From contig JAODAQ010000039.1 in NCBI GenBank assembly GCA_025463515.1, forward strand, positions 1 to 64,000: 64,000 nt of DNA. Direction: 5' to 3'. Shown here one piece after another: positions 6,860 to 32,741 of the stretch. The DNA is from Rhodoglobus sp. (lineage in GTDB: Bacteria > Actinomycetota > Actinomycetes > Actinomycetales > Microbacteriaceae). A program made the position numbers and the translations under genes. The number at the start of each line of letters is the position of its first letter. Within the stretch, counting starts at the first letter, position 1. Under the pieces are notes generated by a model. It made no database searches. It had not been told where the DNA came from and was given only the letters and a program-made list of their open reading frames with translations.

Positions 6860-7154
6860 GCTCGTCGTCCTCTACCCGGAGCCCACCAGTCGCGACGACT
6901 TCTTGGCCTACTACGAGCAGCACCATTTGCCGCTCGCCAGGGCGCTGCCCGGTCTCGTGGGCTGTCGCTACAGCGCCGCGGTGGACGGCCAGGACTCGCC
7001 GTACTTCGCCGTGTTCGAGGCCGACTTCCCCGACGCGAAGACCCTGGGCGAGGCGATGCAGTCGCCCGCCGGCGCAGCGGTGGCCGCGGACGTGCCGAAC
7101 TACGCGACCGGCGGCGCCGTGGTGATCGACTACCCGGTCACCGAGCTGGCGTAG
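6852..7154 (+). CDS. EthD-like dimeric alpha-beta barrel protein
   Basis: A 100-residue protein with the EthD-family pattern: strand KLVVLYPEP, then the SRDDFLAYYEQHHLPLARALPGL helix with the conserved HHLPL, and the YFAVFEADFPD strand. EthD-family members are small ferredoxin-like dimers, often encoded beside oxygenases and thought to assist or to transform unstable intermediates. GTG 6852 overlaps the StyA-like gene, so the two are translationally coupled and probably act on the same substrate. The 3' end overlaps the convergent AraC-type gene by 17 bp. Confidence 0.75.
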   Translation: MHKLVVLYPEPTSRDDFLAYYEQHHLPLARALPGLVGCRYSAAVDGQDSPYFAVFEADFPDAKTLGEAMQSPAGAAVAADVPNYATGGAVVIDYPVTELA

Positions 7155-8121
7155 CCGAGGCGAGGCCGCGGGCGCGGAACTCGCTCGCGGTCTCGCCCAC
7201 GTCGGCGCGGAACGCCTTGCTGAAGTGCGCAGGGTTCACGAAGCCCCAGGAGGCGGCGATCTGCGAGATGGCGAGGTGGCCGAGCCTGGGGTCGCGCAGG
7301 TCGCGGCGGACGTAGCTCATCCGACGCTCGCGGATCCACTGCGAGATCGTGGTGCCCTGCTTGTGGAAGATCTGCTGCAGGTAGCGGGCCGAGATGAAGT
7401 TGGCGGCCGCGATCGACTGCGGGCCGAGCTCCGGGTCGGAGAGGTTGCGCGAGATGTACTCGTGGATGGAGTGCAGCAGCTCGCCGCTGCGGTCGCGGGC
7501 GTTGCCCGAGAGCCGGATGAGCTCGCCAGCCAGCATCGTCGAGATCACGTCCATCGTGTTGTGGACGACCCGCAGCCCGGTCGAGCCGTCGAGGTCGCCC
7601 ACCGTGCGGGTGAGCTCACGCAGGAATGGGCTCACGGCCCGGGCGAGACCGTCGTCGCCGGCCAGCCGCACGGCGGTGAGCTTGCCCACCTCGTGGCTGT
7701 CGACGTCGAGCGCACTGTGCGGGAACATGACGACCACGGCGTGCATGGGGTCGTCGAAGGTGAGCGTGTAGGGGCGGCTGGTGTCGTACAGCCCGATGTC
7801 GCCGGGGTGGAGGACGGCCTCCTTGCCGTCCTGCACGAGCAAGGCCGTGCCCTGGAGCTGCAGGGTGAGCTTGTAGAACATCTGGGATGACGCGTCGATG
7901 AGCTCCTGCGTGCGAGTCACCCGGTGGGCGCTCACGCCGATCTCGGAGAAGAACACGTTCTCGAGCACGCGCCCGTTGAGCCTCGCGTCGAACGAATCCG
8001 GGTCGGCGCTGTCGACCTCGAGCGGCACGAACGAGCCGGAGACGACCTGCTGCCACTGGAGGAACGAGCGGGTGCGAACGCGCACGGCGCCGCGCGCGCC
8101 GTCATCGGGCTGACTCGGCAT
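7138..8121 (-). CDS. AraC-family transcriptional regulator
   Basis: A 327-residue activator-type regulator. Residues about 20-190 form an AraC-binding-like cupin domain (LQGTALLVQDGKEAVLHPGDIGLYDTSRPYTL), and the last about 100 residues hold two helix-turn-helix motifs (IAAANFISARYLQQIFHKQG and ISQIAASWGFVNPAHFSKAFR). ATG 8121 is behind a perfect AAGGAGGT with five-base spacing; the track ORF to 8859 is an upstream extension. It is divergent from the flavin reductase/HpaB genes and convergent with the StyA/EthD pair, so it is the natural regulator of one or both. Confidence 0.9.
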   Translation of the reverse strand: MPSQPDDGARGAVRVRTRSFLQWQQVVSGSFVPLEVDSADPDSFDARLNGRVLENVFFSEIGVSAHRVTRTQELIDASSQMFYKLTLQLQGTALLVQDGKEAVLHPGDIGLYDTSRPYTLTFDDPMHAVVVMFPHSALDVDSHEVGKLTAVRLAGDDGLARAVSPFLRELTRTVGDLDGSTGLRVVHNTMDVISTMLAGELIRLSGNARDRSGELLHSIHEYISRNLSDPELGPQSIAAANFISARYLQQIFHKQGTTISQWIRERRMSYVRRDLRDPRLGHLAISQIAASWGFVNPAHFSKAFRADVGETASEFRARGLASATPAR

Positions 8122-8307: not shown

Positions 8308-8850
8308 ATGATGACCGCGACCCCGGGCTTCAGCCCCGAGTCCAGGCTGTACCGCCCGCTCGCGCACTTCCTGCGGGGCAGCCTGGGCCGCTTCGCGACG
8401 GGCGTCGCGATCGTGACCTTCGACGGCACGGATGACGACGACCGCCCCGTGCGGCACGGCATCACGGTCAACTCCTTCACCTCGGTGTCGATGGACCCTC
8501 CGCTCGTGCTCGTCTCCATCCAGCGCACGGTGCGCACGCACACGATGCTCGCCGCGCGCCCCTTCACGGTGAACATCCTCGGGGCCGAGCAGCAGGCGCT
8601 GGCGATGCACTTCGCCGGGCGGCCCCAGGTGGAGGTCGTGTGGGAGGAGGGCGAGCACGCGCCGCGCCTGGCCGGCGTGCTCAGCTGGTTCGAGTGCACG
8701 CCGTGGGCGGAGTACGACGGCGGCGACCACACCCTCTTCCTCGGCGAGGTGCAGAACTTCGACTACCGGCCCGGCGACTCCCTTGGGTTCATGAACGGCC
8801 AGTTCACGACGATCCGCGAGTCGGCTCTCGGCCACGAGTCGCTGATCTGA
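8308..8850 (+). CDS. Flavin reductase family protein
   Basis: A 180-residue NAD(P)H:flavin oxidoreductase domain that supplies reduced flavin to partner oxygenases. Visible features are FATGVAIVTFDG (the substrate-flanking strand), HGITVNSFTSVSMDPPLVLVSI (flavin binding), FTVNILGAEQQALA and the terminal HTLFLGEVQNFDYRPGDSLGFMNGQFTTI. ATG 8308 sits behind GACGGAGGA; a second ATG at 8311 is possible. Its stop overlaps the HpaB start (TGATG), so the two form a classic two-component pair. It may also serve the StyA-like oxygenase, which has no reductase of its own nearby. Confidence 0.9.
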   Translation: MMTATPGFSPESRLYRPLAHFLRGSLGRFATGVAIVTFDGTDDDDRPVRHGITVNSFTSVSMDPPLVLVSIQRTVRTHTMLAARPFTVNILGAEQQALAMHFAGRPQVEVVWEEGEHAPRLAGVLSWFECTPWAEYDGGDHTLFLGEVQNFDYRPGDSLGFMNGQFTTIRESALGHESLI

Positions 8851-10319
8851 TGGGGGCACGGACGGGCGCGCAGTACCTCGAGCGCCTCAACGCCATGACG
8901 CCGACGCTGTACGTCGACGGTGAGAAGGTCACGGCACGGGTGGCGGAGCATCCGGCCTTCCGCAACAACGCCCTGAGCTTCGCCGCCCTGTACGACCTGC
9001 AGCACGGCAAGCACGCCGCCGAGCTCACCTACCCGTCGCCGACCACCGGCGACCCGGTCGGCATCTCCTTCCTCGTGCCCCGCTCCGAAGACGACCTGCA
9101 CCGGCGTCGCGAAGGCGCGGCGGTGTGGGCGAGGTACTCGAACGGATTCCTCGGCCGCACCGGCGACTACATGAACGCCGCCCTGACGGCCCTGTCGACC
9201 GCGGCCGAGTTCTTCGGCAGGGCGGACCCGGTGTTCGCCGAGCGCATCGCGGCGTACTACGAGTACGCCCGCGAGAACGACCTGCTCGCCACCCACACCC
9301 TGATCCCGCCGCAGGTCAACCGCGCGGTGTCGGGCAGCGCCCAAGCCGGCGCGCAGGTTGCGGCCCGCGTGGTCGAGGAGCGCCCGGACGGCATCGTGAT
9401 CCGCGGGGCACGGATGCTCGCGACCGTCGCGCCCATCGCCGACGAGCTTCTCGTGTTCCCCTCGACGCTCCTGCGCGGCACGGCGGAGGACGCCCCCTTC
9501 TCTTATGCGTTCGCCATCCAGAACGATGCGCCGGGCCTGAAGTACTACTGCCGGAGCCCGCTGTACCGGGGCGGCAGCGCCTTCGACGAGCCGCTCGCCT
9601 CGCGCTACGACGAGATGGATGCGCTCGTGGTGTTCGACGACGTGTTCGTGCCCAACGAGAGGGTGTTCCTGCTCGGGCATCCGGAGCTCTGCAACGCCTT
9701 CTACGCCGAGACCGGCGCGAGCCAGCTGATGACCCACCAGGTCGTGACGCGCACGCTCGCCAAGACCGAGTTCTACCTGGGGCTCGCGGCCTCGATCGCC
9801 GATGCGATCGGGATCGGCGGCTTCCCGCACATCCAGCAGGATCTGGCCGAGCTCATCTCCTACGTCGAGATCGAGAAGGCGCTGCTGCGCGCGGCGGAGG
9901 CCGACGGTGCTGCGAACGCCGAGGGGGTCTTCCTGCCGAAGTGGGACACGCTCAATGCCGCGCGCAACTGGTACCCGCAGCAGGTGTCGCCGAGGCTGGC
10001 TGAGATCATCCGCAAGTTCTCCGCGTCCGGCCTGATGGCCCTGCCCGGCGAGGCCGACTTCGAGACCGACGGCCGCGCCGACCTCGACCTGTACCTCCAG
10101 TCGGCGGCGCTGCCCGCACGCGATCGCGCGCGGCTGTTCAAGCTCGCCCTCGATGCGTCGGTCTCGGGCTTCGCCGGCCGCGAGTCGCTCTACGAGTACT
10201 TCTTCTTCGGCGACCCGGTGCGCATGGCCGGGGCGCTCGTCAGCTCATACCCGCTGGACGCGTACAGGGCGCGCGTCGACGAGCTGCTGAACCGCTCACC
10301 CCACCCAAGGAGATCCTGA
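8850..10319 (+). CDS. HpaB-family flavin-dependent oxygenase (4-hydroxyphenylacetate 3-monooxygenase type)
   Basis: A 489-residue class D flavin monooxygenase with acyl-CoA dehydrogenase fold; the family hydroxylates phenolic rings (4-hydroxyphenylacetate, 4-nitrophenol, chlorophenols) using FADH2. N-terminal pattern MGARTGAQYLERLN and YVDGEKV, middle IPPQVNR and the acyl-CoA-dehydrogenase-like MDALVVFDDVFVPNERVFL, and C-terminal GLMALPGEADFE fit HpaB. Length is typical. Translation is coupled to the reductase upstream and to the aldehyde dehydrogenase downstream (both TGATG). Whether 4-hydroxyphenylacetate is the substrate is not shown; no ring-cleavage genes follow. Confidence 0.88.
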   Translation: MGARTGAQYLERLNAMTPTLYVDGEKVTARVAEHPAFRNNALSFAALYDLQHGKHAAELTYPSPTTGDPVGISFLVPRSEDDLHRRREGAAVWARYSNGFLGRTGDYMNAALTALSTAAEFFGRADPVFAERIAAYYEYARENDLLATHTLIPPQVNRAVSGSAQAGAQVAARVVEERPDGIVIRGARMLATVAPIADELLVFPSTLLRGTAEDAPFSYAFAIQNDAPGLKYYCRSPLYRGGSAFDEPLASRYDEMDALVVFDDVFVPNERVFLLGHPELCNAFYAETGASQLMTHQVVTRTLAKTEFYLGLAASIADAIGIGGFPHIQQDLAELISYVEIEKALLRAAEADGAANAEGVFLPKWDTLNAARNWYPQQVSPRLAEIIRKFSASGLMALPGEADFETDGRADLDLYLQSAALPARDRARLFKLALDASVSGFAGRESLYEYFFFGDPVRMAGALVSSYPLDAYRARVDELLNRSPHPRRS

Positions 10320-11728
10320 TGTCCAACGCCACAACCACCCCGCTCCTCGACCGGATGCAGCCCGCGTCGGGCGGCCGGGTCATCCTCGACGCCGCCACCC
10401 GGGAGCCGATCGGCAGGGCGCCCGAGCACACCGTCGCCGACCTCGATGACGCTCTCGCGCGCGCCCGGGCTGCCCAGCCCGGTTGGGAGGCCCTCGGCCA
10501 CGAGCGCCGTAGCGAACTGCTCGGCGCGGTCGCCGATCGTATCGACGAGTACGCCGAGCAGCTCGCCGAGCTGCTCTCCCGCGAGCAGGGCAAGCCGCTG
10601 AACGGACCGAACGCCCGGTTCGAGGTCGGGGCGTGCTCCGCCTGGCTGAGGGCCACGGCCGCGACGGTGCTCGAGCCCGAGGTGGTGGTCGACAGCGACG
10701 GGGTGCACGCCGAGCTGAGCTACCGCGCCATCGGCGTCGTCGGCGCGATCGGCCCGTGGAACTGGCCGATGATGATCGCGATCTGGCAGATCGCGCCTGC
10801 CCTCCGCATGGGCAACACGGTAGTCGTGAAGCCCAGCGAGTACACGCCGCTGAGCGTGCTCGCGCTGCTCGACGTGATGAACGAGGTGCTGCCGCCCGAC
10901 GTGCTCATCGGCGTCGCGGGCGACCGCGACGTTGGGGCGCGGCTCGCCTCGCACCCGGGTGTCGACAAGGTCATGTTTACCGGGTCGACGGCGACCGGGC
11001 GCAGGATCATCGAGGGCTCCGCGCAGAACCTCGCCCGGCTCACACTCGAGCTGGGCGGCAACGACGCGGGCATCGTGCTGCCCGGCGCCGACCCGGCCGC
11101 GATCGCGGAGGGCCTGTTCTGGGGCGCCTTCATCAACACCGGCCAGACCTGCGCGGCTCTCAAGCGCCTGTACGTGCACGACTCGATCTACGACGGCGTG
11201 GTCGACGCGCTCGCCGCAGTGACGGCACGGATGCCCATGGGCAACGGCCTCGACGAGGCGAATGTGCTCGGACCGCTGCAGAACCAGCTGCAGTTCGACA
11301 TCGTCAGCCGGCTCGTCGAGGATGCCCGGACCAACGGCGGACGGGTGGTGACCGGGGGAGCCCCCGCCACCGAGCTCGGTGAGCTGTTCTACCCGATCAC
11401 CCTCATCGCGGATGTCTCCGACGGGCTCGCGCTCGTCGACGAGGAGCAGTTCGGGCCCGTGCTGCCGATCATCCGGTACTCCGACGTCGACGATGCGGTG
11501 GCGAGCGCGAATCGCCTCGACGCGGGCCTGGGCGCCTCGGTGTGGGGCGACCGGGATGCCGCACTGGCGGTCGCCGCGAGGGTCCACGCGGGAACGGTGT
11601 GGATCAACTCCCACGGCGGCGTGCACCCCATGATCCCGTTCGGCGGCGTGAAGGGCTCGGGCTACGGGCTGGAGTTCGGCGTCGAGGGGCTGAAGGCGGT
11701 GTCGGTGCCGCGGGTGATCAACGGGTAG
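10319..11728 (+). CDS. NAD(P)-dependent aldehyde dehydrogenase
   Basis: A 469-residue ALDH-superfamily enzyme oxidising an aldehyde to a carboxylate. Motifs: IGPWNWPMMIAIWQIAPALRMGN (cofactor cleft and Asn), VVKPSEYTPLS, FTGSTATGRRI, the general-base LELGGNDAG and the catalytic cysteine in NTGQTCAALKR near residue 279, then EEQFGPVLPI and the C-terminal PFGGVKGSGYG. It is coupled by TGATG to the HpaB-type gene, so it probably processes an aldehyde formed by or upstream of that hydroxylation. Exact substrate unknown. Confidence 0.93.
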   Translation: MSNATTTPLLDRMQPASGGRVILDAATREPIGRAPEHTVADLDDALARARAAQPGWEALGHERRSELLGAVADRIDEYAEQLAELLSREQGKPLNGPNARFEVGACSAWLRATAATVLEPEVVVDSDGVHAELSYRAIGVVGAIGPWNWPMMIAIWQIAPALRMGNTVVVKPSEYTPLSVLALLDVMNEVLPPDVLIGVAGDRDVGARLASHPGVDKVMFTGSTATGRRIIEGSAQNLARLTLELGGNDAGIVLPGADPAAIAEGLFWGAFINTGQTCAALKRLYVHDSIYDGVVDALAAVTARMPMGNGLDEANVLGPLQNQLQFDIVSRLVEDARTNGGRVVTGGAPATELGELFYPITLIADVSDGLALVDEEQFGPVLPIIRYSDVDDAVASANRLDAGLGASVWGDRDAALAVAARVHAGTVWINSHGGVHPMIPFGGVKGSGYGLEFGVEGLKAVSVPRVING

Positions 11729-15903: not shown

Positions 15904-15908
15904 TGGCT

Positions 15909-16092
15909 AGCAGGGAGGGGCAGGGGCAGGGGCAGGGCGGGGAGGGGCAGGGCAGGGCCGGGCGGAACGGGGCAGGGCAGGGCAGGGCTGCTGCGGAGTG
16001 CCAAGGATGGTCGCGCGCCGGTATCGGCGCGACGCTGCTGCCGCGGCGGGCGCGTGGCGCCGAAAGCGCCGCGCGGAGCGAGGCGGACGGTT
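15909..16092 (+). repeat. G-rich low-complexity tract next to inverted repeat copy 2
   Basis: Units GGGGCAGG and GGGCAGG recur at least ten times between 15912 and 15995, then the tract decays to mixed GC-rich sequence before the hydrolase stop at 16102. Together with the inverted repeat it fills the 293-bp gap between 15808 and 16102, in which no gene is credible. Confidence 0.6.
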
Positions 16093-16101: not shown

Positions 16102-16788
16102 CTAGTGGCGTCCGACGAACGCGACTACCGCCTCCTTGAACGCCCTGGCCGAGACCGCGTTGGAGTGGGTGCGTCCGGGGAGCAGTACGAGCTCGGCGCC
16201 GAGGCGGGCGGCGAGGTCGACCGGGTCGGTGGCGATCGTGTCGGCATCGCCCGTGACGAGGAGGGTGGGCTGCTCGGCCCGCTGCATCGGCGCAGTGGAG
16301 GCGCGCAGTCCTTCGGCGAAAGCGGCGAGGGCAAGAGGGTCGCGTCCCGGTGCCTGCATACCCGCGACCAGGTCGGCGGGCAGCGCGCCCGAGAGCGGGT
16401 CGGTGGAGGGCAGACCGCCCAGGCTCAGGGTGGCGATGCGCTCGGGCGATTCGCGGGCGACGTCGAGGCCGATCCGCGCGCCGAGGGAGTAGCCGAGCCA
16501 GTGCGCCCGCTCGACGCCGAAGTGGTCGAGCACCGCGAGGGCGTCGGCGCGCAGGAGGGCCGCCGAGTAGCGCGCGGGGTCCGGGGAGGTCTCGCTCGCG
16601 CCGTGGCCGCGGAGGTCGAACGTGATGAGGCGGTACCCCTCCAGGGCGCGGGGCCAGCCGGCGGCCACCCAGTTGTCCTGGGCGGTGGAGGCGAAACCGT
16701 GCACGGCGAGAATGGCGGGCGCGGCATCCGGCCCGCTGGTCTCTGCTGAGAGTGACAGGCCGTCGACGGTTGTGACGGTGTCGCGCAT
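16102..16788 (-). CDS. Alpha/beta hydrolase, AcoC C-terminal-like, in 2-oxoacid dehydrogenase operon
   Basis: A 228-residue alpha/beta hydrolase with oxyanion region VHGFASTAQDNW, nucleophile elbow GYSLGAR (Ser101), an acid in TGDADT (Asp181 or 183) and His208 in RTHSN. Its ATG overlaps the stop of the lipoyl-domain gene (TGATG), so the two are made together. In the acetoin dehydrogenase complex, AcoC is a single polypeptide with an N-terminal lipoyl domain and a C-terminal alpha/beta hydrolase domain. Here the same two modules are separate genes. I infer that this protein takes the place of a canonical E2 acyltransferase domain. A free-standing hydrolase with an unrelated role is the alternative. 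Confidence 0.75.
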   Translation of the reverse strand: MRDTVTTVDGLSLSAETSGPDAAPAILAVHGFASTAQDNWVAAGWPRALEGYRLITFDLRGHGASETSPDPARYSAALLRADALAVLDHFGVERAHWLGYSLGARIGLDVARESPERIATLSLGGLPSTDPLSGALPADLVAGMQAPGRDPLALAAFAEGLRASTAPMQRAEQPTLLVTGDADTIATDPVDLAARLGAELVLLPGRTHSNAVSARAFKEAVVAFVGRH

Positions 16789-17111
16789 CAGTCCTCCGGG
16801 ATGCTCAGCCGCACGCGGCGGACGGGCTCCGACTCCTTGGGGACCGTGCCGACGATGCCGGCCTCCTCGTCCGGGACCTCGAAGGTCACGAACGGCTTGC
16901 CGACCTCGATGGTCTCGCCGTCGGCGGCGTGGAGGGTCTTGACGATGCCGCTCAGCGGCGACGGGATCTCGAGGGCCGACTTGGTGGTCTCCACCTCGAC
17001 CATCGGGTCGTTGCGCTCGAGCCGGTCGCCCGGCTTCACAAGCCACTCGATGACGGTCGCGTCGATGAGGCCCTCGCCGAGGTCGGGGAGGGGGAAGGTC
17101 TTGTCAGCCAC
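16788..17111 (-). CDS. Stand-alone lipoyl-domain protein (E2-like)
   Basis: A 107-residue protein that is essentially one lipoyl domain: KTFPLPDLGEGLIDATVIEW, the lipoylation site VETTKSALEIPSP with Lys44, and GIVKTLHAADGETIEVGKPFVTF. The last 25 residues are a short charged tail. A normal E2 has about 400 residues with peripheral-subunit-binding and catalytic domains; both are missing, and there is no downstream in-frame continuation, because the next gene is the alpha/beta hydrolase. It overlaps E1 beta by 8 bases. The domain would carry the acyl group from E1, but the acyltransferase and complex core must be supplied by another protein. Confidence 0.85.
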   Translation of the reverse strand: MADKTFPLPDLGEGLIDATVIEWLVKPGDRLERNDPMVEVETTKSALEIPSPLSGIVKTLHAADGETIEVGKPFVTFEVPDEEAGIVGTVPKESEPVRRVRLSIPED

Positions 17112-18117
17112 GCCGGTACTCCAATGCTCGTTGCACGCCGAAGAGGATGCGGTCGACGCTCGGGATGAACTCGTCCTCGAGGTCGCCGGACGGGGTCGGG
17201 ACGTCGTAGCCGGTGACCCGCTCGACGGGAGACTTGAGCTCGCGGAAGCACAGCCGCGAGACGAGGGCCGTGATCTCGGCCCCCGGGCCCGCGGTGAGCG
17301 GCGCCTCGTGCACGACCACGGCGCGGCCGGTGCGCGACACGCTCTCCTGCAGCGACTCCTCGTCGATCGGGGTCAGCCAGCGCAGGTCGAGGACCTCGAG
17401 CTCGATGCCGTCCTCGGCCGCGAGCTCCGCCACCTGGAGGCAGCGGTGCACCATCGAGCCCCAGCACACGAGCGTCGCGTGCCGGCCCGGGCGCACGATG
17501 GTCGCGCCCTCGAGGTCGGCCGCGGCATCCGGGTCGACCGGGCCCTTGTTCCAGTAGCGGGACTTGGGCTCCATGAAGATCACCGGGTCGGGCATGGCGA
17601 TCGCGCGGCGGAGGAGGTGGTACGCGTCGTGCGGGTTGGACGGCGTGACGACCTTGAGCCCGGGGACGTGCATGAAGTACGTCTCGAGGCTCTCGCCGTG
17701 CAGTTCGGGGGCACGGATGCCGCCGAAGCTCGGCACGCGCAGGGTGATCGGCATCGGGAACGCGCCGCGGCTGCGGTAGTTCATCCGCGCGACCTGGGAG
17801 AGCAGCTGGTCGAAGCCCGGGAAGACGAAGCCGTCGAACTGCACCTCGGGCACGGGGTGCCAGCCGCCCATCGCGAGGCCGACGGCGAGGCCGATGATGC
17901 CCGACTCCGCGAGCGGGGTGTCGAACACCCGGCCCGCGCCGAACTCGGCCTGCAGCCCGTCCGTCATGCGGAACACGCCGCCGAGCACGCCGACGTCCTC
18001 GCCGAAGACGAGCATGCGGTCGTCGTCCGCGAGGGAGTCGCGCAGCGCGCGGTTGATCGCCCCCTGCATCGAGAGCTCGAGTGTGGCGGTGGCGGTTGCT
18101 GTTGCGGTCTCAGGCAT
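17104..18117 (-). CDS. 2-oxoacid dehydrogenase E1 component, beta subunit
   Basis: A 337-residue transketolase-type E1 beta. Signature regions: MLVFGEDVGVLGGVFRMTDGL near residue 35, RVFDTPLAESGIIGLAVGLAMGG, PVPEVQFDGFVFPGFDQLLSQVARM and LRWLTPIDEESL; these agree best with the branched-chain 2-oxoacid dehydrogenase branch. With E1 alpha it forms the TPP-dependent decarboxylase. The N terminus has a short Thr/Ala repeat. Start ATG overlaps the end of E1 alpha by 8 bases, showing translational coupling. The substrate could be a branched-chain 2-oxoacid or, given the AcoC-like E2, acetoin or a related diketone precursor. Confidence 0.92.
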   Translation of the reverse strand: MPETATATATATLELSMQGAINRALRDSLADDDRMLVFGEDVGVLGGVFRMTDGLQAEFGAGRVFDTPLAESGIIGLAVGLAMGGWHPVPEVQFDGFVFPGFDQLLSQVARMNYRSRGAFPMPITLRVPSFGGIRAPELHGESLETYFMHVPGLKVVTPSNPHDAYHLLRRAIAMPDPVIFMEPKSRYWNKGPVDPDAAADLEGATIVRPGRHATLVCWGSMVHRCLQVAELAAEDGIELEVLDLRWLTPIDEESLQESVSRTGRAVVVHEAPLTAGPGAEITALVSRLCFRELKSPVERVTGYDVPTPSGDLEDEFIPSVDRILFGVQRALEYRRG

Positions 18118-19108
18118 GTTCGCTCTCCTCGCGCCACTGCGCGCGCTGGCGGGTGATCTGGGGCGTGGGGCTCTGGAACACGTGCTCGAACATCTGGTCG
18201 CCGGGCATCGGTGCGGGCTCGACGAGCGTCGCGCGCAGCGCCTCGAGCCGGGGTGCCTCGGCCTCGACGAGGGCGGCGAACCACGCGTCGTCCGCCAGCC
18301 CGCTTGCCCGCAGGACGCCCTCCAGCCGCTCGAGCGGATCGACGCCGGCGGCCCGCTCGTCCTCGAGGGAGCGGTAGCGGCCCGGGTCGTCGGACGTGGC
18401 GTGCGGCCCGCGGCGGTAGGTCATCGCCTCCACGAGGGAGGGGCGGCCTGTCGAGCGGGCGAGCTCGACGGCGTCGTGCGTCGCGCGGTAGACGGCGATC
18501 GGGTCGTCCCCGTCGACGACGGTGCCGGTCATCCCGTAGCCGGCCGCTCGGGCGGCGACGGACTCGCCGCCCACCTGGCGGGCGAGTGGAACGGAGAGGG
18601 CCCAGCGGTTGTTCTGCACGAAGAAGACGACGGGCGCACTCATCACGGAGGCGAAGTTCATCGCCTCGTGCACGTCCCCCTGCGAGCTCGCGCCGTCGCC
18701 GAAGTAGCTCAGCGCAACGCCGTCGAGGCCGTCGAGCTTCTGGCCGAGGGCCCAGCCCACGGCGTGGAGCGGCCCGGCGCCGACGACCGCCTGCAGGGGA
18801 GCGAAGCGATCGCGCGCGGCATCCCAGAGCCCGCCGTGCCACAGGCCCAGGTGGCTGCCGAGGTAGCCGACGAGGTCGACGCCCCACGCGACAGCGACGC
18901 CGATCTCGCGGTAGGTCGGGAAGACGAAGTCCTTGCTGCGGTCGAGCGCGAGGGCGCTGCCGACCTGCGCGGCCTCCTGACCGCGGGCCGGGGGATAGGC
19001 GGGGACGAGCCCCTGCCGCTGCCAGGTCACGAGGCCGTTGTCGAGCGTGCGCGCGAAGTGCATGTGCTCGTAGCTGCGCCTGAGCAGTTCGTCGTCAGCG
19101 TCGGACAT
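18110..19108 (-). CDS. 2-oxoacid dehydrogenase E1 component, alpha subunit
   Basis: A 332-residue thiamine-diphosphate-binding subunit with the TPP motif GDGASSQGDVHEAMNFAS followed by PVVFFVQNNRWALS near residues 165-195, and the N-terminal pattern LDNGLVTWQRQGLVPAYPPARGQEAAQVG. It resembles BkdA-type E1 alpha. ATG 19108 is preceded by GGGAGG; the track ORF to 19696 extends into the regulator. It is the first gene of a four-gene overlapping operon ending at 16102. No dihydrolipoamide dehydrogenase (E3) is in the window. The divergent Lrp/AsnC gene mirrors the bkdR-bkd layout of other actinobacteria. Confidence 0.92.
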   Translation of the reverse strand: MSDADDELLRRSYEHMHFARTLDNGLVTWQRQGLVPAYPPARGQEAAQVGSALALDRSKDFVFPTYREIGVAVAWGVDLVGYLGSHLGLWHGGLWDAARDRFAPLQAVVGAGPLHAVGWALGQKLDGLDGVALSYFGDGASSQGDVHEAMNFASVMSAPVVFFVQNNRWALSVPLARQVGGESVAARAAGYGMTGTVVDGDDPIAVYRATHDAVELARSTGRPSLVEAMTYRRGPHATSDDPGRYRSLEDERAAGVDPLERLEGVLRASGLADDAWFAALVEAEAPRLEALRATLVEPAPMPGDQMFEHVFQSPTPQITRQRAQWREESEHA

Positions 19109-19178: not shown

Positions 19179-19234
19179 GAGCAGTGTGTATCGCTTCGGT
19201 CAGGGATATGATCCAAATACTGAGCAATGTGTAT
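19179..19234. promoter_or_regulatory. Direct-repeat sites in E1 operon / Lrp spacer
   Basis: GAGCAGTGTGTAT (19179-19191) and GAGCAATGTGTAT (19222-19234) match in 12 of 13 positions and start 43 bp apart, about four helical turns, so both face the same side of DNA. Lrp/AsnC proteins bind in phased arrays, and this is the shared promoter region of the E1 alpha operon and the regulator, so these are candidate operators. Confidence 0.55.
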
Positions 19235-19250
19235 AGGGAATCGGAGAATC

Positions 19251-19745
19251 ATGGCGCAGAGTGACCAAATCGACGTGCATCCGGATGCCCTGGACGCCCG
19301 TCTCGTCGGTGTGCTGTCCGACAATCCGCGGATCGGGGTGCTCGGGGCCGCCCGCCTGCTCGGGATCGCGCGGGCGACCGTGCAGGCCCGGCTGGACCGG
19401 CTCGTCCGCTCCGGCATCCTCTCGCTCGAGCCGCGGGTGGATCCCGCCCGGTTCGGTTTCCCGGTGTCGGCGATGGTCTCCCTCGAGCTGCAGCAGAGCC
19501 ATCTCGGCGTGCCGGCGGCGGAGTCACTCGAGGCGATCCCGGAGGTGACCGAGATCCACTCGGTGTCGGGCCAGGCCGACCTGCTCGTACGGGTCGTCGC
19601 GCGGTCGAACGAGGACTTGCAGCGCGTGCTGCACGAGATCCTCGCGATCGAGCAGGTGCTGCGGACGTCGTCCTCGATCCTGCTGAAGACGTTCATGCGG
19701 GAGCGGACCAGGCCGCTGTTCGCGAGGGTGGCCGCCGGAAAGTAG
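19251..19745 (+). CDS. Lrp/AsnC-family regulator (BkdR-like)
   Basis: A 164-residue feast/famine regulator: N-terminal helix-turn-helix (DALDARLVGVLSDNPRIGVLGAARLLGIARATVQARLDRLVRSGIL) and a C-terminal ligand-binding domain (SVSGQADLLVRVVARSNEDLQRVLHEIL). ATG 19251 follows CGGAGAATC; the track start at 19227 lies within a candidate operator. It is divergent from the 2-oxoacid dehydrogenase operon, as BkdR is in Streptomyces, where it controls branched-chain keto acid dehydrogenase genes in response to amino acids. I infer the same role here. Confidence 0.88.
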   Translation: MAQSDQIDVHPDALDARLVGVLSDNPRIGVLGAARLLGIARATVQARLDRLVRSGILSLEPRVDPARFGFPVSAMVSLELQQSHLGVPAAESLEAIPEVTEIHSVSGQADLLVRVVARSNEDLQRVLHEILAIEQVLRTSSSILLKTFMRERTRPLFARVAAGK

Positions 19746-19872: not shown

Positions 19873-19911
19873 TAAGATATGGATGCACCTTTCAATGACG
19901 AAGGAGAGCAA

Positions 19912-21141
19912 GTGCCAACTGCAATCACCCGCCGCATTCGCATAGCGGCAGTCCTCACAGCACTCACGGTCGGAACCGCCCTCGCTGGCTGCGCCAGCGG
20001 CGGCACCGGACCAGAGTCCGAAGCGCCCATCAAGATCGGCGCCTCGCTTCCCCTCACCGGTCCGGTGGCCGACGTCTCGGGCCCGGGCTACAACGGCTAC
20101 GAGCTCTGGGCGGAGCAGGTGAACGCCGCCGGCGGCCTCCTCGGGCGCCCGGTCGAGCTCACCCTCCTGGACGACGGCTTCGACCAGGACCAGGTGGTAG
20201 CCAACTACACCCGCCTGATCAGCCAGGACAACGTGGACCTGCTTCTCGGCACGTTCTCGTCGTTCCTGAACCTGCCAGCGTCGGCGGTCGCCGAGCGCAA
20301 CGGCATGGTGTACGTCGAACCGTCGGGCGGCGCGCAGGAGATCTTCGAGCAGGGCTTCACCCGCCTGTTCTTCGCGCAGCCCGGCACCTCCGCGAGCCTG
20401 CCCGACCGCTTCGTCGAGTGGGTGGAGTCGCTTCCCGCGGACGAGCGCCCCAAGACCGCGGCCTACATCACGCAGACCGACCCGAACACGGAGCCCGCGG
20501 TCCAGGGCTTCCAGGACCAGCTCGAGGCGCTCGGCGTCGAGACCGTCTACGACGAGAGCTACGCCCCGGAGCAGACCGCGTTCGACTCGGCAGCCGACGC
20601 CATCAAGCGCGCCGACCCCGACCTGCTCGTGCACGGCGCGGTGGGCGAGGACGGCATCGGCCTCGTGCGCTCGCTCCAGAAGGTCGGCTTCAGCCCCGAC
20701 CAGTTCTTCCAGACGAACGCGCCCTCCGACATCGCGGGCTACCCCGCGGGCATCGGCGAGGCGAACACCGAGGGCATCTTCTCCTCGGTGAGCTGGACTC
20801 CTGCGACCGACTTCCCCGGCAGCCAGGACTTCGTCGCCGCCTACGAGAAGAAGTACGGCATCGAGCCGGACGACAACGCCTCGTCGTCGTACTCGGCTGC
20901 GCAGATCCTGCAGGCGGCCGTGGAGGCCGTCGGCGAGATCGACCAGGACAAGATCGCCGAGTGGCTGCACGCCAACACGGTGGACACGATCTCGGGCCCG
21001 ATGTCGTGGGACGAGCGCGGTGTACCGGCCGGCTCGCTCTCCCTGGCCCAGTGGCAGGACGGCAAGTTCGTGATCGTGCTGCCCGAGGATGCCGCGGGCA
21101 CCGACCACATCGTCAGCCCCAAGCCGAACTGGGTGGGGTAA
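19912..21141 (+). CDS. Liv-type ABC transporter substrate-binding lipoprotein
   Basis: A 409-residue periplasmic-binding-protein-like lipoprotein of the branched-chain amino acid / aromatic / amide family. The signal peptide ends in the lipobox ALAGC, so the mature protein is lipid-anchored outside the membrane. The domain starts PIKIGASLPLTGPVADVSGPGYNGYELW, with NAAGGLLGRPVEL and DNVDLLLGTFSSFLN typical of LivJ-like receptors. GTG 19912 follows AAGGAG; the track ATG at 19879 lies before the Shine-Dalgarno. Such receptors bind amino acids but also ureas, amides and aromatic acids, so the ligand cannot be named. It heads a twelve-kilobase operon. Confidence 0.92.
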   Translation: MPTAITRRIRIAAVLTALTVGTALAGCASGGTGPESEAPIKIGASLPLTGPVADVSGPGYNGYELWAEQVNAAGGLLGRPVELTLLDDGFDQDQVVANYTRLISQDNVDLLLGTFSSFLNLPASAVAERNGMVYVEPSGGAQEIFEQGFTRLFFAQPGTSASLPDRFVEWVESLPADERPKTAAYITQTDPNTEPAVQGFQDQLEALGVETVYDESYAPEQTAFDSAADAIKRADPDLLVHGAVGEDGIGLVRSLQKVGFSPDQFFQTNAPSDIAGYPAGIGEANTEGIFSSVSWTPATDFPGSQDFVAAYEKKYGIEPDDNASSSYSAAQILQAAVEAVGEIDQDKIAEWLHANTVDTISGPMSWDERGVPAGSLSLAQWQDGKFVIVLPEDAAGTDHIVSPKPNWVG

Positions 21142-21146
21142 GCCTC

Positions 21147-22034
21147 ATGGGGTTGTTGCTCCAGACGCTGGTATTCGGTGTCCTTCTCGGGAGCCTCTAC
21201 GCTCTCGCCTCGTCCGGACTCTCGCTGACCTTCGGGGTCTTGCGGATCGTCAACCTGGTGCACGGGTCGCTCCTGATCACCGGGGGGTACCTGACCTACA
21301 CACTGTGGTCGGTGCTCGGCGGTCTCGACCCGATCGTCTGCATCCTCCTGACGACTCCCATGATGGGACTGATCGGATGGGCGCTGTACACGGCGCTCAT
21401 CCGGCCGACCATCGCGGGAGGGGACGGCGGCACGATGATGGCGACCTTTGCCGTCATGATCGCCGCGGAAGGCATCTTCGCCCTCGTCTGGGGCAACACC
21501 CCGCTCACCGTCGCGCCGCCGTACGCGCGCACCTCGATCGCCCTCGGCGATCTCGTGATCCCGCACGCCCAGCTCTACGCGGCAATCGTCGCGCTCGTGG
21601 TGCTGGGCGCACTGGGGGCGGTCCTCCGGTTCACGAAGCTCGGCAGGTCCATCCGCGCCGCGGCCTCGAACCCCGCGGGCGCCCGGCTGGTCGGCATCCG
21701 GGTCTCCCGTGTCAACGCCCTCACCTACGCGATCGGCGCGGCGACGGCCGGCGCTGGCGGAGCGCTGATCAGCGTGATCTACCCGCTCACCCCCGACTCC
21801 TGGGGAGCCTGGCTCGCCCGCGGTCTCGCGATCGTGGCACTCGGCGGCATGGGCAGCTTCCTCGGCACCTTCGTCGCGGCCCTGCTCTTCGGCGTCGCCG
21901 AGACGCTCGTGACTGCCTACGTCTCCCTGACCTGGACCGTCGCGGTGCCCTACGTGGTGATCATCGCGGTGCTCATCTTCAAACCCCGCGGCCTGTTCGG
22001 CGCGCGCGGCAGAACGGACGTCTCAACACCATGA
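21147..22034 (+). CDS. Liv-type ABC transporter permease (LivH-like)
   Basis: A 295-residue membrane permease with about eight helices, starting LLLQTLVFGVLLGSLYALASSGLSLTFGVLRIVNLVHGSLL, the LivH hallmark. The cytoplasmic segment RFTKLGRSIRAAASNPAGARLVGI couples to the ATPase. ATG 21147 lies five bases after the receptor gene. Its stop overlaps the next start (ATGA). It forms half of the translocation channel with the LivM domain of the next protein. Confidence 0.93.
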   Translation: MGLLLQTLVFGVLLGSLYALASSGLSLTFGVLRIVNLVHGSLLITGGYLTYTLWSVLGGLDPIVCILLTTPMMGLIGWALYTALIRPTIAGGDGGTMMATFAVMIAAEGIFALVWGNTPLTVAPPYARTSIALGDLVIPHAQLYAAIVALVVLGALGAVLRFTKLGRSIRAAASNPAGARLVGIRVSRVNALTYAIGAATAGAGGALISVIYPLTPDSWGAWLARGLAIVALGGMGSFLGTFVAALLFGVAETLVTAYVSLTWTVAVPYVVIIAVLIFKPRGLFGARGRTDVSTP

Positions 22035-23860
22035 CCGCCCTCACTCAGCGCCGCAGGCTCACGCTGCCCATCATGGCGGCCGCCACCCTGCTGCTCGCCC
22101 TCAGCCCCCTCACGTGGAACAACCTCTACGTGCAGAACATGATCATCATGACGATGATCCTCGGTGTCATGGCCGTCACCTGGAACGTCATGGGCGGCTT
22201 CACCGGCTACATCTCGCTCGGCCACAGCGCCTTCCTCGGCGTCGGCGCGTACACGACCGCGGTACTCGTGGTGCAGTTCGGGCTGCCGTGGTGGGTCGGC
22301 CTCCTCGCCTCCGTGGTCTCGAGCGCAGTGCTCGCGGGCATCTTCGGGCTCGTCACACGCCGGGCCCGTGGCACCGCGTACATCATGGTCACCTTCGCGG
22401 CACTCGAGCTGCTCAAGGTGCTCGCGATGAATCTCACGGACCTCACCAACGGCAACCACGGCCTGACCATGCCGTTCCTGCGCACCGAGCGCCAGTTCCA
22501 GCAGTGGCCGTACTACTACGGGCTGCTCGCGCTGCTGGTCCTGACCGTGCTCATGACCCTGTGGATCCGCCGCTCGAAGTTCGGTGCGGGGCTGCTGAGC
22601 ATCCGCGAGGACGAGGACAAAGCGGCATCCATCGGCATCATGACCTCCCGGTACAAGCTCATCGCCTTCGTGCTGAGCGGCATCCCGGTCGGCATCGCCG
22701 GCGGCATCTACGCGTACTACATCGGCTTCGTCGAGCCGCGCGGCTACTTCCTGATCGCGGTGAGCATGCAGGTCGTGCTCGCGGTGCTTCTCGGCGGTCG
22801 CGGCACGATCTGGGGGCCGCTGCTCGGCGCCGCGATCGTGGAGCCGCTGTCGCAGTTCACGAACGCGGTGATCGGCGGCCCGCAGGGCGGAGCCTGGCGG
22901 CTCGTGCTGTTCGGGGCGATCCTGCTCGCGGTGATCCTCGGCCTGCCCCAGGGCATCATCCCGGCGGTGCGCCGCCTCATCGACCGGCAGCGCGCCAAGC
23001 GCACGACCGCAACGACCGGCGAGCGCTTCACCGCCGGGGCGCTCAGCACCGGCGACGCCCTCAAAGTTCTCGAGACGTTCCGCGAGCCCGCGCCGGCGAC
23101 CGAACTGATCCTCGAGGTGGACGACCTGCGCAAGCGCTTCGGCGGCATCGCGGCGCTCGACGGATGCTCGTTCCAGGTGCCGCGCGGATCGGTGACGGCC
23201 CTCATCGGCCCCAACGGCTCGGGCAAGACCACGGCCTTCAACATGATCGACGGCAGCGCCCGTCTCGACGGCGGCACGATCCGCTACAACGGTGAGCGCA
23301 TCGACTCCCTTCCCCGGTGGAAGCGCGCGCACCTCGGCATCGGGCGCACGTTCCAAACCACGCGGCTCTTCCCGGCGCTGACCGTGCGCGAGAACCTCGT
23401 GGCCCCGCTGCGCGAGTTCCGCTGGGGAGCGCTCGCGAGTCCGAGCATGTCGGGCGTGGAGAGCGAGCGGGCGGAGGCCGCGATCGGCCTCGTGGGCCTG
23501 GGGCGCTACCTCGACGCCGAGGCGGGCGGACTCTCCTACGGCCAGCAGAAGCTCGTCGAGCTCGCCCAGGTGCTGGTGCTCGATCCGGAGCTCGTGCTTC
23601 TCGACGAGCCGGCCGGCGGCATCAACCCGGCGATCGTCGAGCAGATGGCCGAGATCATCGCCGGTCTCAAGGCCGCGGGCAAGACGGTGCTCATCGTGGA
23701 GCACAACATGCCCTTCGTGCTCGAGAACAGCGAGCTCGTGCACGTGCTCTCCGCCGGCGCACGTATCGCCTCGGGCACGCCGGACGAGATCCGCAACAAC
23801 CCCGTGGTGCTCGAGGCCTACCTCGGTGACACCCCGGTCGAGACGGGAGCACGGGCATGA
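22031..23860 (+). CDS. Liv-type permease-ATPase fusion (LivM-LivG)
   Basis: A 609-residue fusion. Residues 1 to about 325 are a LivM-type permease (MGGFTGYISLGHSAFLGVGAYTTAVL, then SIREDEDKAASIGI near residue 195), joined by a Thr/Ala linker to a LivG-type ATPase with Walker A GPNGSGKTT near residue 396, Q-loop RTFQTTRLF, signature LSYGQQKLVELA, Walker B LVLLDEP and switch His in VEHNM. The same arrangement is known in other actinobacterial and proteobacterial Liv systems. Starts and stops overlap on both sides (ATGA). Confidence 0.93.
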   Translation: MTALTQRRRLTLPIMAAATLLLALSPLTWNNLYVQNMIIMTMILGVMAVTWNVMGGFTGYISLGHSAFLGVGAYTTAVLVVQFGLPWWVGLLASVVSSAVLAGIFGLVTRRARGTAYIMVTFAALELLKVLAMNLTDLTNGNHGLTMPFLRTERQFQQWPYYYGLLALLVLTVLMTLWIRRSKFGAGLLSIREDEDKAASIGIMTSRYKLIAFVLSGIPVGIAGGIYAYYIGFVEPRGYFLIAVSMQVVLAVLLGGRGTIWGPLLGAAIVEPLSQFTNAVIGGPQGGAWRLVLFGAILLAVILGLPQGIIPAVRRLIDRQRAKRTTATTGERFTAGALSTGDALKVLETFREPAPATELILEVDDLRKRFGGIAALDGCSFQVPRGSVTALIGPNGSGKTTAFNMIDGSARLDGGTIRYNGERIDSLPRWKRAHLGIGRTFQTTRLFPALTVRENLVAPLREFRWGALASPSMSGVESERAEAAIGLVGLGRYLDAEAGGLSYGQQKLVELAQVLVLDPELVLLDEPAGGINPAIVEQMAEIIAGLKAAGKTVLIVEHNMPFVLENSELVHVLSAGARIASGTPDEIRNNPVVLEAYLGDTPVETGARA

Positions 23861-24585
23861 TCGAGATCGACGCGGTGAGCGCCGGCTACGGCGGGGGCCT
23901 GGTGCTGCGGGATGTTTCGCTCACCATCCCCGAGGGCGAGACCACGTGCATCGTGGGCCCCAACGGCGCGGGCAAGTCCACGATGCTCAAGGTGATCTGC
24001 GACGACCTCACCCCCTCCGCCGGAGAGGTGCGCGTCGCGGGCGTGCGGGTGACCGGCCGCACCCCGGCCGGCGCGATCGACTGCGGCGTGGTGATGATCC
24101 CGCAATCCAACGCGCTGTTCCCGGAGATGACAGTCCGGGAGAACGTCCTGCTGGGCGCGCACGCCGTGAAGGGCAGCGCGCGCGTGCACGCTGCCCGGCT
24201 CGCGGAGCTCGAGGCCCTGTTCCCCGTCGTCGGTGAGCGGGCGCGCACCCACGCGGGGCTGCTCTCGGGCGGCCAGCGCCGCATGGTCGAGTTCGCGCGG
24301 GCGCTCATGAGCCGCCCCCGCGTCGTGCTCCTCGACGAGCCGTCGATCGGCCTCGACCCCAAGTCCCTCGAGCTGCTCTCGGCCTCCATCCGGACCATGG
24401 CCGAGGCCGGGACCACCGTGGTCCTCGTCGAGCAGAACGTCCGGTTCGGCCTCGCCGCCGCGACGACGGGCGTGATCATGGAGGGCGGCACGGTCTTCGC
24501 GACCGGGCCTGCAGCAGACCTGCTCGCCGACCCCGAGATGCGCGCCGTGTTCATCGGCGGCCACGCGGTGAGGGCTGCGTCATGA
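23857..24585 (+). CDS. Liv-type ABC transporter ATP-binding protein (LivF-like)
   Basis: A 242-residue ATPase with Walker [11 protein letters not shown], signature [16 protein letters not shown], Walker B VVLLDEP and the LivF-like [25 protein letters not shown]. With the LivG domain of the fusion it forms the ATPase pair. Its ATG overlaps the previous stop and its stop overlaps the malate synthase start (ATGA), so transporter and enzymes form one translationally coupled unit. Confidence 0.94.
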
Positions 24586-26741
24586 CCCGGGTCAGGATCG
24601 CCGGCCTCGACATCGACTCGGGCCTGGCCGACTTCGTCGCCGAGGAGGCACTGCCCGGCACGGGCATCCCGGTCGACGATTTCTGGTCGGGCGCCGCCAC
24701 CATCATCGACGAGTTCTCGGGGCAGATCGCGGCACTGCTCGCGACGCGCGACGACCTCCAGCGCCAGCTCGACGACTGGCACCGCGCGTACCCCGGGCCG
24801 ATCGCCGACCCAGTCGCGTACGAGGCGTTCCTGCGCGAGATCGGCTACCTGCTGCCCGAGCCCGCGGACTTCGAGATCACCACCACGGGCGTCGACAGCG
24901 AGATCGCGGTGCAAGCCGGGCCGCAGCTCGTCGTGCCGCTCACCAACGCGCGATTCGCGGCCAACGCGGCCAACGCGCGCTGGGGCTCCCTGTACGACGC
25001 GCTCTACGGCAGCGACGCGATCCCGCGCGAGGGCGAGCTCGCGCCGACGGACGGCTACAACCCCGCGCGCGGCGCGGCGGTCATCGCCTTCGGCCGAGAG
25101 CTGCTGGATGCCGCGTTCCCCCTGGCCCACGGCTCGCACGCCGATGCCCGTCACTACGCCGTCGCACCGGACGGCCTCGTCGTCACCCTGCCCGACGGCG
25201 AGGTCCCGCTCCGGGACCCGGCGCAGTTCGCCGGCCACCGCGGCACCCCGGCCGAGCCGAGCGCCGTGCTGCTCCTGCACAACGGCCTGCACGTCGAGGT
25301 CGCGATCGACAGGGGCGACCCGGTCGGGGCGACGGATGCCGCGGGCATCCGGGATCTCGTGCTGGAGTCGGCCCTCACCACGATCATGGACCTCGAAGAC
25401 TCGATCTCCGCGGTGGACGCCGAGGACAAGGTCGTCGCCTACCGCAACTGGCTGCTGCTCATGCAGGGGCGCCTCGAGGTGGCCGTCGACAAGGGCGGCT
25501 CGCGGTTCACGCGGACTCTCAACGCGGACCGGGAGTACACGGCGGCGAACGGCTCGTCCGTCGCGCTGCCCGGGCGGTCCTTGCTGTTCGTGCGCCACGT
25601 CGGCCACTTCATGTACACGGACGCCGTGCTCGACGCCCACGGCCGGGAGGTGCCGGAGGGCATCCTCGACGCCCTGCTCACGACCCTCGCCGCGCTGCAC
25701 AGCGCGCGGGCGGCGCTCGCGAACTCGCGCACCGGCTCGGTCTACATCGTCAAGCCGAAGATGCACGGGCCGGAGGAGGTCGCGGTCACGGTGCGGCTCT
25801 TCGCGGCCGTCGAGCGCCTGCTCGGCCTGCCCGAGCGCACGCTCAAGATCGGGATCATGGACGAGGAGCGGCGCACGACCCTCAACCTCAAGGCGGCGGT
25901 GCGCGAGGCGAGCGATCGCGTGGTGTTCATCAACACCGGGTTCCTCGACCGTACGGGCGACGAGATCCACACCTCGATGCACGCGGGACCGGTCCTGCGG
26001 AAGGGCGACCTGCGCACGCACCCCTATATAGGAGCGTACGAGGACAACAACGTGGACGTCGGCCTCGCGGCGGGCTTCTCGGGCCGCGCGCAGATCGGCA
26101 AGGGGATGTGGGCGATGCCCGACCTCATGGCCGCCATGCTCGAGCAGAAGATCGCGCACCCCCGCGCCGGCGCGAGTACCGCCTGGGTGCCGTCGCCGAC
26201 GGCGGCCACTCTGCACGCCACGCACTACCACCGGGTGGATGTCGCGGCGGCACAGGAGCAGCTGCTGCACCGCGCCCACCGCGGTATCGCGCCGATCCTC
26301 GACGTGCCGGTGGTGGCCGACCCGCAGTGGACCGGGGAGGAGCGCCGCGCCGAGCTCGATACCAACGTGCAGTCGATCCTCGGGTACGTCGTGCGGTGGG
26401 TGGACCAGGGGATCGGCTGCTCGAAGGTCCCTGACCTGAACGACGTGGGGCTCATGGAGGACCGCGCGACCCTGCGCATCTCCAGCCAGCTGCTCGGCAA
26501 CTGGCTGCTGCACGGAGTGGTCTCGCGCGACGAGGTGCTCGACAGCCTCGACCGCCTGAGCCTGACGGTCGACCGGCAGAACGCCGACGACCCGCTCTAC
26601 CTGCCGCTCGGCTCGAGTGCGGCCCCCTCGCTCGCGTACGAGGCTGCACGGGACCTCGTCCTCGAGGCAGCCGCGCAGCCGAACGGCTACACGGAGACGA
26701 TCCTGCACGCGTACCGCCGACGCCGGAAGGCCAGCGCATGA
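24582..26741 (+). CDS. glcB: Malate synthase G
   Basis: Condenses glyoxylate with acetyl-CoA to give malate. At 719 residues it has the full G-isoform architecture (the A isoform is about 530). Conserved blocks are [24 protein letters not shown] near 265-290, [56 protein letters not shown] and the C-terminal lid. No isocitrate lyase is nearby; instead the gene is embedded between an ABC transporter and an aldolase/amidohydrolase pair, with four-base overlaps on both sides. I infer that the pathway encoded here releases glyoxylate. Confidence 0.95.
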
Positions 26742-31390: not shown

Positions 31391-32713
31391 TCAGCGGTTG
31401 TCGTAGACCCGCTTGAGCTTGCCGCCGCTGCGCTCGAGCGAGCCCGGTGCCGCGAGGTCGACCTCGACGGTGGAGCCGATGCGGGCCTTCACATCGCGGA
31501 TCAGGGTCTTGGCCGCGGTCGCGGCATCCGCCTCGGCCAGCCCCGGCAGCGGCTCGATGTGCACGGTCATGCAGTCCATGCGCCCGACGGTGCTGAGCTC
31601 GAGCGTGAAGTGCGGCGACAGTCCCGGGATGGTGAGCGCGATCTCCTCGATCTGGCTCGGGAACAGATTGACCCCGCGCAGGATGATCATGTCGTCGTTG
31701 CGCCCGGTGATCTTCTTAATCCGGCGCATGCTGGGGCGGGCGGTTCCGGGCAGCAGCGTGGAGATGTCGTGCGTGCGGTACCGGATGATCGGCAGCCCCA
31801 CCTTCGTCAGGGTGGTGAAGACGAGCTCGCCCGCGGTGCCGTCGGGCAGGGCTGCGCCGGTCTCCGAGTCGATGATCTCCGGCCGGAAGTGGTCCTCCCA
31901 GATGTGCGGGCCGTCCTTCGACTCGATGCACTCGTTGCCCACGCCCGGGCCCATGACCTCGCTCAGGCCGTAGATGTCGAGCGCGTCAATGCCGAGCGAC
32001 TCCTCGATCGTGGCCCGCATCTCGTTGGTCCAGGGCTCGGCGCCCAGCACTCCGACCTTGAGCGAGGTGCTCGCGGGGTCGATGCCGCTGTCGCGGAGCG
32101 CGTCGATGATGGTGAGGAGGTACGTGGGCGTCGCCATGATCGCGTCGGGCGCGAAGTCGCGGATGAGCTGTACCTGCTTGATCGTGTTCCCGCCCGACAT
32201 CGGGATGACCGTGGCGCCGAGGCGCTCGATCCCCGCGTGCGCGCCCAGCCCGCCCGTGAAGAGCCCGTAGCCGTAGGCGTTGTGGACGATGTGGCCCGGC
32301 CGGACGCCGGAGGCGCGCAGCGAGCGCGCGACGAGTCCGGCCCAGTTGTCGAGGTCGCCCGCGGTGTAGCCGACCACGGTCGGCAGGCCGGTGGTGCCGG
32401 AGGACGCGTGGATGCGCATGATCTGCTCCCGGGGCACGGCGAACATTCCGAACGGGTAGCTGCGCCGCAGGTCGTCCTTCGTCGTGAAGGGCAGCAGCGC
32501 CAGGTCGTCCAGCGAGCGGATGTCGTCGGGGTGCACTCCCGCGGCGTCGAACTTCTCCGTGTACAGCGGCACGTTCTCGTAGGCCCGGCGCACGGTCTCC
32601 TGGAGCCGGCGCAGCTGCAGCGCCTCGAGCTCGTCGCGGGACATGCGCTCTTCGGGGTCGAGCTCGTGGGCTGCCGGAGCGTGCGCACGCCCCTTCGTCG
32701 CGACGGTGGTCAT
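31391..32713 (-). CDS. paaK: Phenylacetate--CoA ligase
   Basis: Activates phenylacetate to phenylacetyl-CoA with ATP, the first step of the aerobic paa pathway. The 440-residue product has the adenylation motif IHASSGTTGLPTVVGYT near residue 103, YGYGLFTGGLGAHAG, DIYGLSEVMGPGVG and the C-terminal GRNDDMIILRGVNLFPSQIEE with the catalytic Lys near the end (RSGGKLKRVYDNR). Length is normal for PaaK. It lies 28 bp after paaI on the same strand; both face away from the beta-oxidation genes across the operator at 33214. Confidence 0.96.
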   Translation of the reverse strand: MTTVATKGRAHAPAAHELDPEERMSRDELEALQLRRLQETVRRAYENVPLYTEKFDAAGVHPDDIRSLDDLALLPFTTKDDLRRSYPFGMFAVPREQIMRIHASSGTTGLPTVVGYTAGDLDNWAGLVARSLRASGVRPGHIVHNAYGYGLFTGGLGAHAGIERLGATVIPMSGGNTIKQVQLIRDFAPDAIMATPTYLLTIIDALRDSGIDPASTSLKVGVLGAEPWTNEMRATIEESLGIDALDIYGLSEVMGPGVGNECIESKDGPHIWEDHFRPEIIDSETGAALPDGTAGELVFTTLTKVGLPIIRYRTHDISTLLPGTARPSMRRIKKITGRNDDMIILRGVNLFPSQIEEIALTIPGLSPHFTLELSTVGRMDCMTVHIEPLPGLAEADAATAAKTLIRDVKARIGSTVEVDLAAPGSLERSGGKLKRVYDNR

Positions 32714-32741
32714 CTTTTCCTTCGTTGGACTAGGTGTGGTG

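Follow-up and report, generated by a model that had tools for sequence, protein, structure and literature searches.

On the reverse strand of the window, by which we mean the whole 64,000-nucleotide stretch of Rhodoglobus DNA analysed here, lie four overlapping genes of a 2-oxoacid dehydrogenase operon. The gene for E1-alpha (18110..19108, 332 aa, PF00676, branched-chain type) is followed by those for E1-beta (17104..18117, 337 aa, PF02779 and PF02780), a free lipoyl protein with a GTG start (16788..17111, 107 aa, PF00364) and an alpha/beta hydrolase with an ATG start (16102..16788, 228 aa, PF00561). E1-alpha and E1-beta overlap by 8 bases, as do E1-beta and the lipoyl gene, while the lipoyl and hydrolase genes share a single base in a TGATG junction within ...GACTGATGCGC... 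Gene calls and Pfam domains bear out the original prediction that the E2 of this operon is split into a free lipoyl domain of 107 residues and a separate hydrolase. As had also been noted, neither a catalytic E2 core nor an E3 is found in the window, and the same is true for the whole contig, C21.

An Lrp/AsnC-type regulator is encoded divergently on the forward strand (19227..19745, PF01037 and PF13404). It starts about 120 bases from E1-alpha, and a homologue lies close to most of the split operons described below. At the other end, a G-rich low-complexity run of ggcaggg repeats (15905-15990) separates a PPOX-type gene from the end of the hydrolase gene.

The four gene products

The lipoyl protein carries its predicted lipoyl-lysine, K44, in an ETTKS motif and ends in a conserved tail, AGIVGTVP...RRVRLxxPED, whose residues are conserved up to the end of the protein. 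Both the binding domain and the catalytic core of an E2 are absent. Compared with the E2s of its own genome, its lipoyl domain reaches up to 50% identity, and the AGIVGTVP...RRVRL stretch can be aligned with a region, VLVGYG...RRR, that comes after the lipoyl domain of certain full E2s. From this we infer that a Bkd-type E2 may have been cut after the post-lipoyl stretch and a hydrolase recruited.

A search of the genome for a second E2 with a catalytic domain, proposed as a check, returned five PF00198 cores, all on contigs other than that of the window (C62, C2, C38, C5 and C45). The E3 genes likewise lie elsewhere, on C5 and C30. The best match to E3, lipoamide dehydrogenase (C5, 65274-66623), has one internal TAG, which may reflect a damaged gene or a fault in the assembly; the gene on C30 is a second, E3-like one.

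The hydrolase was predicted to have a full catalytic triad, and S101 (in GYSLG), D183 and H208 are indeed invariant among 40 homologues, together with R206, R215 and K218 around the catalytic histidine. An AlphaFold model shows a confident fold (pLDDT 95.9), so that triad and fold both place the protein among the alpha/beta hydrolases. Its best PDB match is 3om8, an uncharacterised Pseudomonas hydrolase, and a Foldseek search with the model returned generic esterases and epoxide hydrolases that give no pointer to function. The cap is short. Because a similarly short cap is seen in Amycolatopsis, it is probably not a sign of damage. Relatives of the hydrolase in 60 close genomes never adjoin E1 genes, which makes this protein a poor probe for the operon.

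Both E1 subunits belong to the branched-chain type, as originally suggested from their sequences. E1-alpha scores 356.7 bits against TIGR03181, under the cut-off of 411.35; it contains the motifs GDGxxSQGDxHExxNFA and YRRGPHATSDDPGRY, and the YRxGxHxTxDD loop typical of this type is present in 95/95 of its homologues. The E1-beta tree agrees: with the short duplicate loci of split operons, which are labelled 'other' in the tree, read accordingly, the split-operon E1-betas form one clade (99/97) that is sister to actinobacterial E1s preceding full E2s. E1-beta is 64-74% identical to its counterparts in other split operons and 53-54% identical to those at full-E2 loci in its own genome, which has two more branched-chain-type E1-beta loci, each with a full E2 (C2 and C38).

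Conservation of the four-gene order

The original prediction called for a search for homologous four-gene operons. Using the lipoyl protein as query, eight others with a free protein of about 107 aa (61-69% identity) were found among 300 genomes of the family, and below them a sharp gap leads to full E2s (best E 1e-26). An alignment of these nine lipoyl proteins recovered 16 more carriers within the order, scoring above 165 bits against less than 118 for full E2s. The order E1-alpha, E1-beta, lipoyl protein, hydrolase is kept in all 24 further genomes. Outside the order, a phylum sample of 397 genomes yielded no free lipoyl protein; this negative is not exhaustive, since the sample missed the carriers in Amycolatopsis.

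These carriers came to light in a scan of GTDB contigs, whose 72 loci partly overlap the set of 25 carrier genomes. Most of the loci belong to Arthrobacter and its relatives (Paenarthrobacter, Sinomonas), the remainder to Cryobacterium, Leifsonia, Agrococcus, one Intrasporangium bin and three Amycolatopsis. All four genes are present in 70 of the 72, and the lipoyl protein measures 105-110 aa in every one. Of the two exceptions, one is cut by a contig end (L188) and the other lacks both E1 genes (L142). In the latter, from Arthrobacter sp. AZCC_0090, the hydrolase is kept and a permease gene lies nearly next to the lipoyl gene, on its upstream side, likely a case of natural loss.

It had been anticipated that the split might be disproved by homologous operons with a full E2 at the same position, or by a sequencing error that merged or truncated an E2 gene. 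No member of the set has a full E2 there, and none of the 25 split operons has one on its contig within a distance of 32 kb. As the assembly containing the window is a draft in 78 contigs, one might suspect a decayed E2 gene or an error of sequencing or assembly, but dozens of independent loci share the gene order and the length of the free lipoyl protein, whose residues stay conserved to its end. These comparative data already refute such an origin, be it by frameshift or truncation, and we give it a practically negligible probability. The operon is thus real: a conserved variant among the 2-oxoacid dehydrogenases, shared by many actinobacteria of the soil.

Genomic neighbourhoods

On the forward strand of the window, HpaB, a 4-hydroxyphenylacetate 3-monooxygenase, is encoded at 8850..10319 (TIGR02309, 563.9 bits, cut-off 480.2). 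It is preceded by an HpaC-like flavin reductase (8308..8850, forward strand) that stays below all NCBIfam cut-offs, for example with 99 bits against 200 for HpaC_Thermus, and adjoined by an aldehyde dehydrogenase (10319..11728, forward strand) that is below all equivalog cut-offs and whose exact substrate is not assignable. A FeaR-like AraC-type regulator upstream of hpaC and hpaB (7138-8121; 134.7 bits, below the cut-off of 199) hints at a possible use of tyramine or phenylethylamine. A near-complete phenylacetate catabolon extends from 31391 to 43684, with paaK, paaI, a thiolase, hydratases, a paaH-like gene, paaZ, paaA, paaC, paaD, paaE and neighbours; PaaA, PaaC, PaaD, PaaE, PaaZ and PaaI exceed their NCBIfam cut-offs and PaaK falls just under (644.9 against 646.3 bits). 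Between these groups lie genes of a Liv-type ABC transporter (19879..24585, forward strand; binding protein PRK15404, 89.6 bits, below cut-off), directly followed by malate synthase G (24582-26741). The transporter was considered as a substrate hint and dropped, as it is not conserved at other loci.

Across the 25 carriers, the homoprotocatechuate-route protein HpaD is found in every genome, compared with 126/396 (32%) in the order sample. Within that sample all 18 carriers have it (Fisher 4.6e-10, kinship ignored), an order-wide association that is confounded by kinship, as most carriers come from one family. Distances within the same genomes tell a similar story: HpaD lies within 15 kb of 8/25 split operons and of 1/133 full-E2 genes (p 1e-6, kinship ignored). 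HpaD or HpaB is this close to 11 of the 25 operons and neither to the other 14; only 8/25 carriers have a TIGR02309-type HpaB that exceeds the cut-off. The order sample also includes 108 HpaD-positive genomes without the operon, and therefore other routes to 4-hydroxyphenylacetate exist. 4-Hydroxyphenylpyruvate dioxygenase (4-HPPD) was not detected over cut-off in any of the 25 carrier genomes.

In the GTDB scan, hpa genes occur within about 10 kb of 32/72 loci. Outside the window, hpa genes for ring cleavage come after the operon; the Sinomonas loci show the split operon followed by hpaG, E, D, H and I. In Amycolatopsis the gene next after the hydrolase encodes an aminotransferase whose closest structure is a phenylalanine aminotransferase, and Cryobacterium has the same aminotransferase together with a TrpX-type transporter nearby. 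Other surroundings are seen as well: at L056, L057 and L058 an AsnC gene precedes an aldehyde dehydrogenase, a thiolase and a short-chain dehydrogenase, and at L112-L127 the operon is frequently found next to nadA/nadB/nadC and an amino acid permease, a proximity to the nad genes that is probably positional. The neighbourhood varies by lineage, and its recurrent theme is aromatic amino acid catabolism.

A candidate function and its relation to known systems

What could such an operon do? On balance we lean towards an arylpyruvate dehydrogenase with a minimal split E2, acting most likely on 4-hydroxyphenylpyruvate and perhaps on phenylpyruvate, whose hydrolase would free the arylacetate. This reading is well supported by genomic context, and the E1 motifs and the hydrolase triad are intact; the substrate, the thioesterase chemistry and the use of a shared E3 we infer. 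In the proposed sequence of events, E1 with TPP would decarboxylate the 2-oxoacid and load the arylacetyl group onto the free lipoyl protein, the alpha/beta hydrolase would cleave the acyl-lipoyl thioester to free arylacetate, and a shared E3 would re-oxidise the dihydrolipoyl group to give NADH. As neither the operon nor its contig encodes an E3, this enzyme must come from elsewhere; one is over cut-off in all 25 carrier genomes. HpaB acts on free 4-hydroxyphenylacetate and PaaK on free phenylacetate, so the released acid could feed either enzyme. Because both need the free acid, a CoA-transferring core would not be required.

The hydrolase-fold protein might instead be an acyltransferase, taking the arylacetyl group off lipoyl and placing it on CoA, with arylacetyl-CoA as the product. 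The hydrolase domain of AcoC, the E2 of acetoin dehydrogenase, is assumed to transfer its acyl group to CoA; the domain order here is that of AcoC, AcoC is the best NCBIfam match of the hydrolase, though far below cut-off, and the window holds phenylacetyl-CoA genes along with a PaaI-type thioesterase. We nevertheless think this unlikely: HpaB takes free 4-hydroxyphenylacetate, so that the CoA would have to come off again, free phenylacetate is what the PaaK of the window uses, and the E1 falls outside the Aco clade. With 4 to 8 PF00198 domains elsewhere in every carrier genome and its identity of up to 50% to the lipoyl domains of the genome's own E2s, the free lipoyl protein could also be pictured as a mobile arm that passes the acyl group to the E2 core of another complex, the hydrolase then being an accessory editing enzyme. 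However, the protein has no binding domain for docking, no full E2 lies within the 32 kb around any of the 25 operons, and the hydrolase adjoins the lipoyl gene in each of them, all of which makes a mobile arm quite improbable.

A complex for branched-chain or other aliphatic 2-oxoacids, with the aromatic neighbours incidental, would suit the type of the E1 as well as the Liv-type ABC transporter and Lrp/AsnC regulator adjacent in the window. Yet the genome already has the branched-chain-type loci with full E2s on C2 and C38, the transporter is not conserved elsewhere, and hpa genes or genes for aromatic aminotransferases are found time and again, in several genera. We accord this reading little probability, and a branched-chain substrate, which a Bkd-like label would suggest, is not supported.

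The favoured arylpyruvate reading can be carried one step further. The operon may encode a CoA-independent 2-oxoacid dehydrogenase, in which a Bkd-type E1, a stand-alone lipoyl carrier and an acyl-lipoyl hydrolase together yield free arylacetates and NADH, and which would represent the 4-hydroxyphenylpyruvate oxidase step in actinobacteria; we hold this fuller proposal to be plausible, if slightly doubtful. In net carbon chemistry it would match the Arthrobacter 4-hydroxyphenylpyruvate oxidase (EC 1.2.3.13), an enzyme attributed to this genus by Blakley 1977, as cited in PMC9338888 and PMC2991359. Arthrobacter arilaitensis uses tyrosine, and the gene for the oxidase was unlocated in its 2010 genome paper (PMC2991359); GapMind omitted the route in 2022, citing too little knowledge (PMC9007349). 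Arthrobacter sp. Rue61a grows on tyrosine, and its closest sequenced relative, Paenarthrobacter (Arthrobacter) aurescens TC1, carries the operon (L133). The occurrence of the operon agrees with that of the oxidase, its loci lying in Arthrobacter and relatives and all 25 carriers having HpaD.

Caution is due in calling the oxidase an orphan, because the cloning into plants of the Arthrobacter globiformis enzyme is reported in a review (PMC9338888); this could be another protein than the split operon. Our limited literature search returned no published description of the four-gene operon and nothing relevant on an arylpyruvate or 4-hydroxyphenylpyruvate dehydrogenase of the split type. If the proposal is true, the operon supplies candidate genes for the conversion of 4-hydroxyphenylpyruvate to free 4-hydroxyphenylacetate, a part of tyrosine degradation about which little is known. 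The complex would, moreover, be a 2-oxoacid dehydrogenase that hydrolyses its lipoyl-bound product instead of passing it to CoA, with an E2 made of two small proteins, and genes of this kind labelled as branched-chain or acetoin enzymes would need re-annotation.

How does the operon compare with known systems? With AcoABC it shares a lipoyl module ahead of an alpha/beta hydrolase and the lack of a PF00198 core. AcoC, however, is one chain, whereas here two separate genes are found, with a short free lipoyl protein at all 72 loci. Against the AcoC model NF011457 (cut-off 307 bits) the hydrolase reaches only 70.2 bits and the lipoyl protein 50.7 bits, and the E1-betas adjoining true AcoC (AcoB-type) form a distant clade. 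Of the AcoC likeness first proposed, the domain order therefore stands and the kinship to acetoin dehydrogenase does not: membership is ruled out by the model scores and the E1-beta tree, and "AcoC-like" is best taken as resemblance only. Across the phylum sample, a single distant family accounts for every fused AcoC over the cut-off.

The Bkd complex shares the E1-alpha/E1-beta family with its motifs and order and a similar lipoyl domain (up to 50% identity). BkdR is an Lrp/AsnC-type regulator near the Bkd genes, comparable to the regulator near the split operon. The E1 type is thus that of Bkd, whereas the operon (25 genomes, 32 kb) is devoid of the PF00198 E2 core, and of the binding domain and E3 as well; in their stead it has a hydrolase gene and aromatic gene company.

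GcvH is a small stand-alone lipoyl carrier. LbpA is another (PMC6067878), and the free lipoyl protein resembles both, its partners here being a Bkd-type E1 and a hydrolase. As for EC 1.2.3.13, the common ground lies in the proposed net reaction, the host genus and the place in the homoprotocatechuate route; that enzyme is described as an oxidase, and its identity with the split operon is hypothetical. A precedent for the hydrolytic step is human ABHD11, an alpha/beta hydrolase that strips glutaryl groups from lipoyl (PMC12643935). Like it, the hydrolase here would cleave an acyl-lipoyl thioester belonging to a 2-oxoacid dehydrogenase, a likeness of fold and reaction. ABHD11, however, repairs an adduct beside a complete complex, whereas the hydrolase of the split operon would carry out a step of the main reaction.
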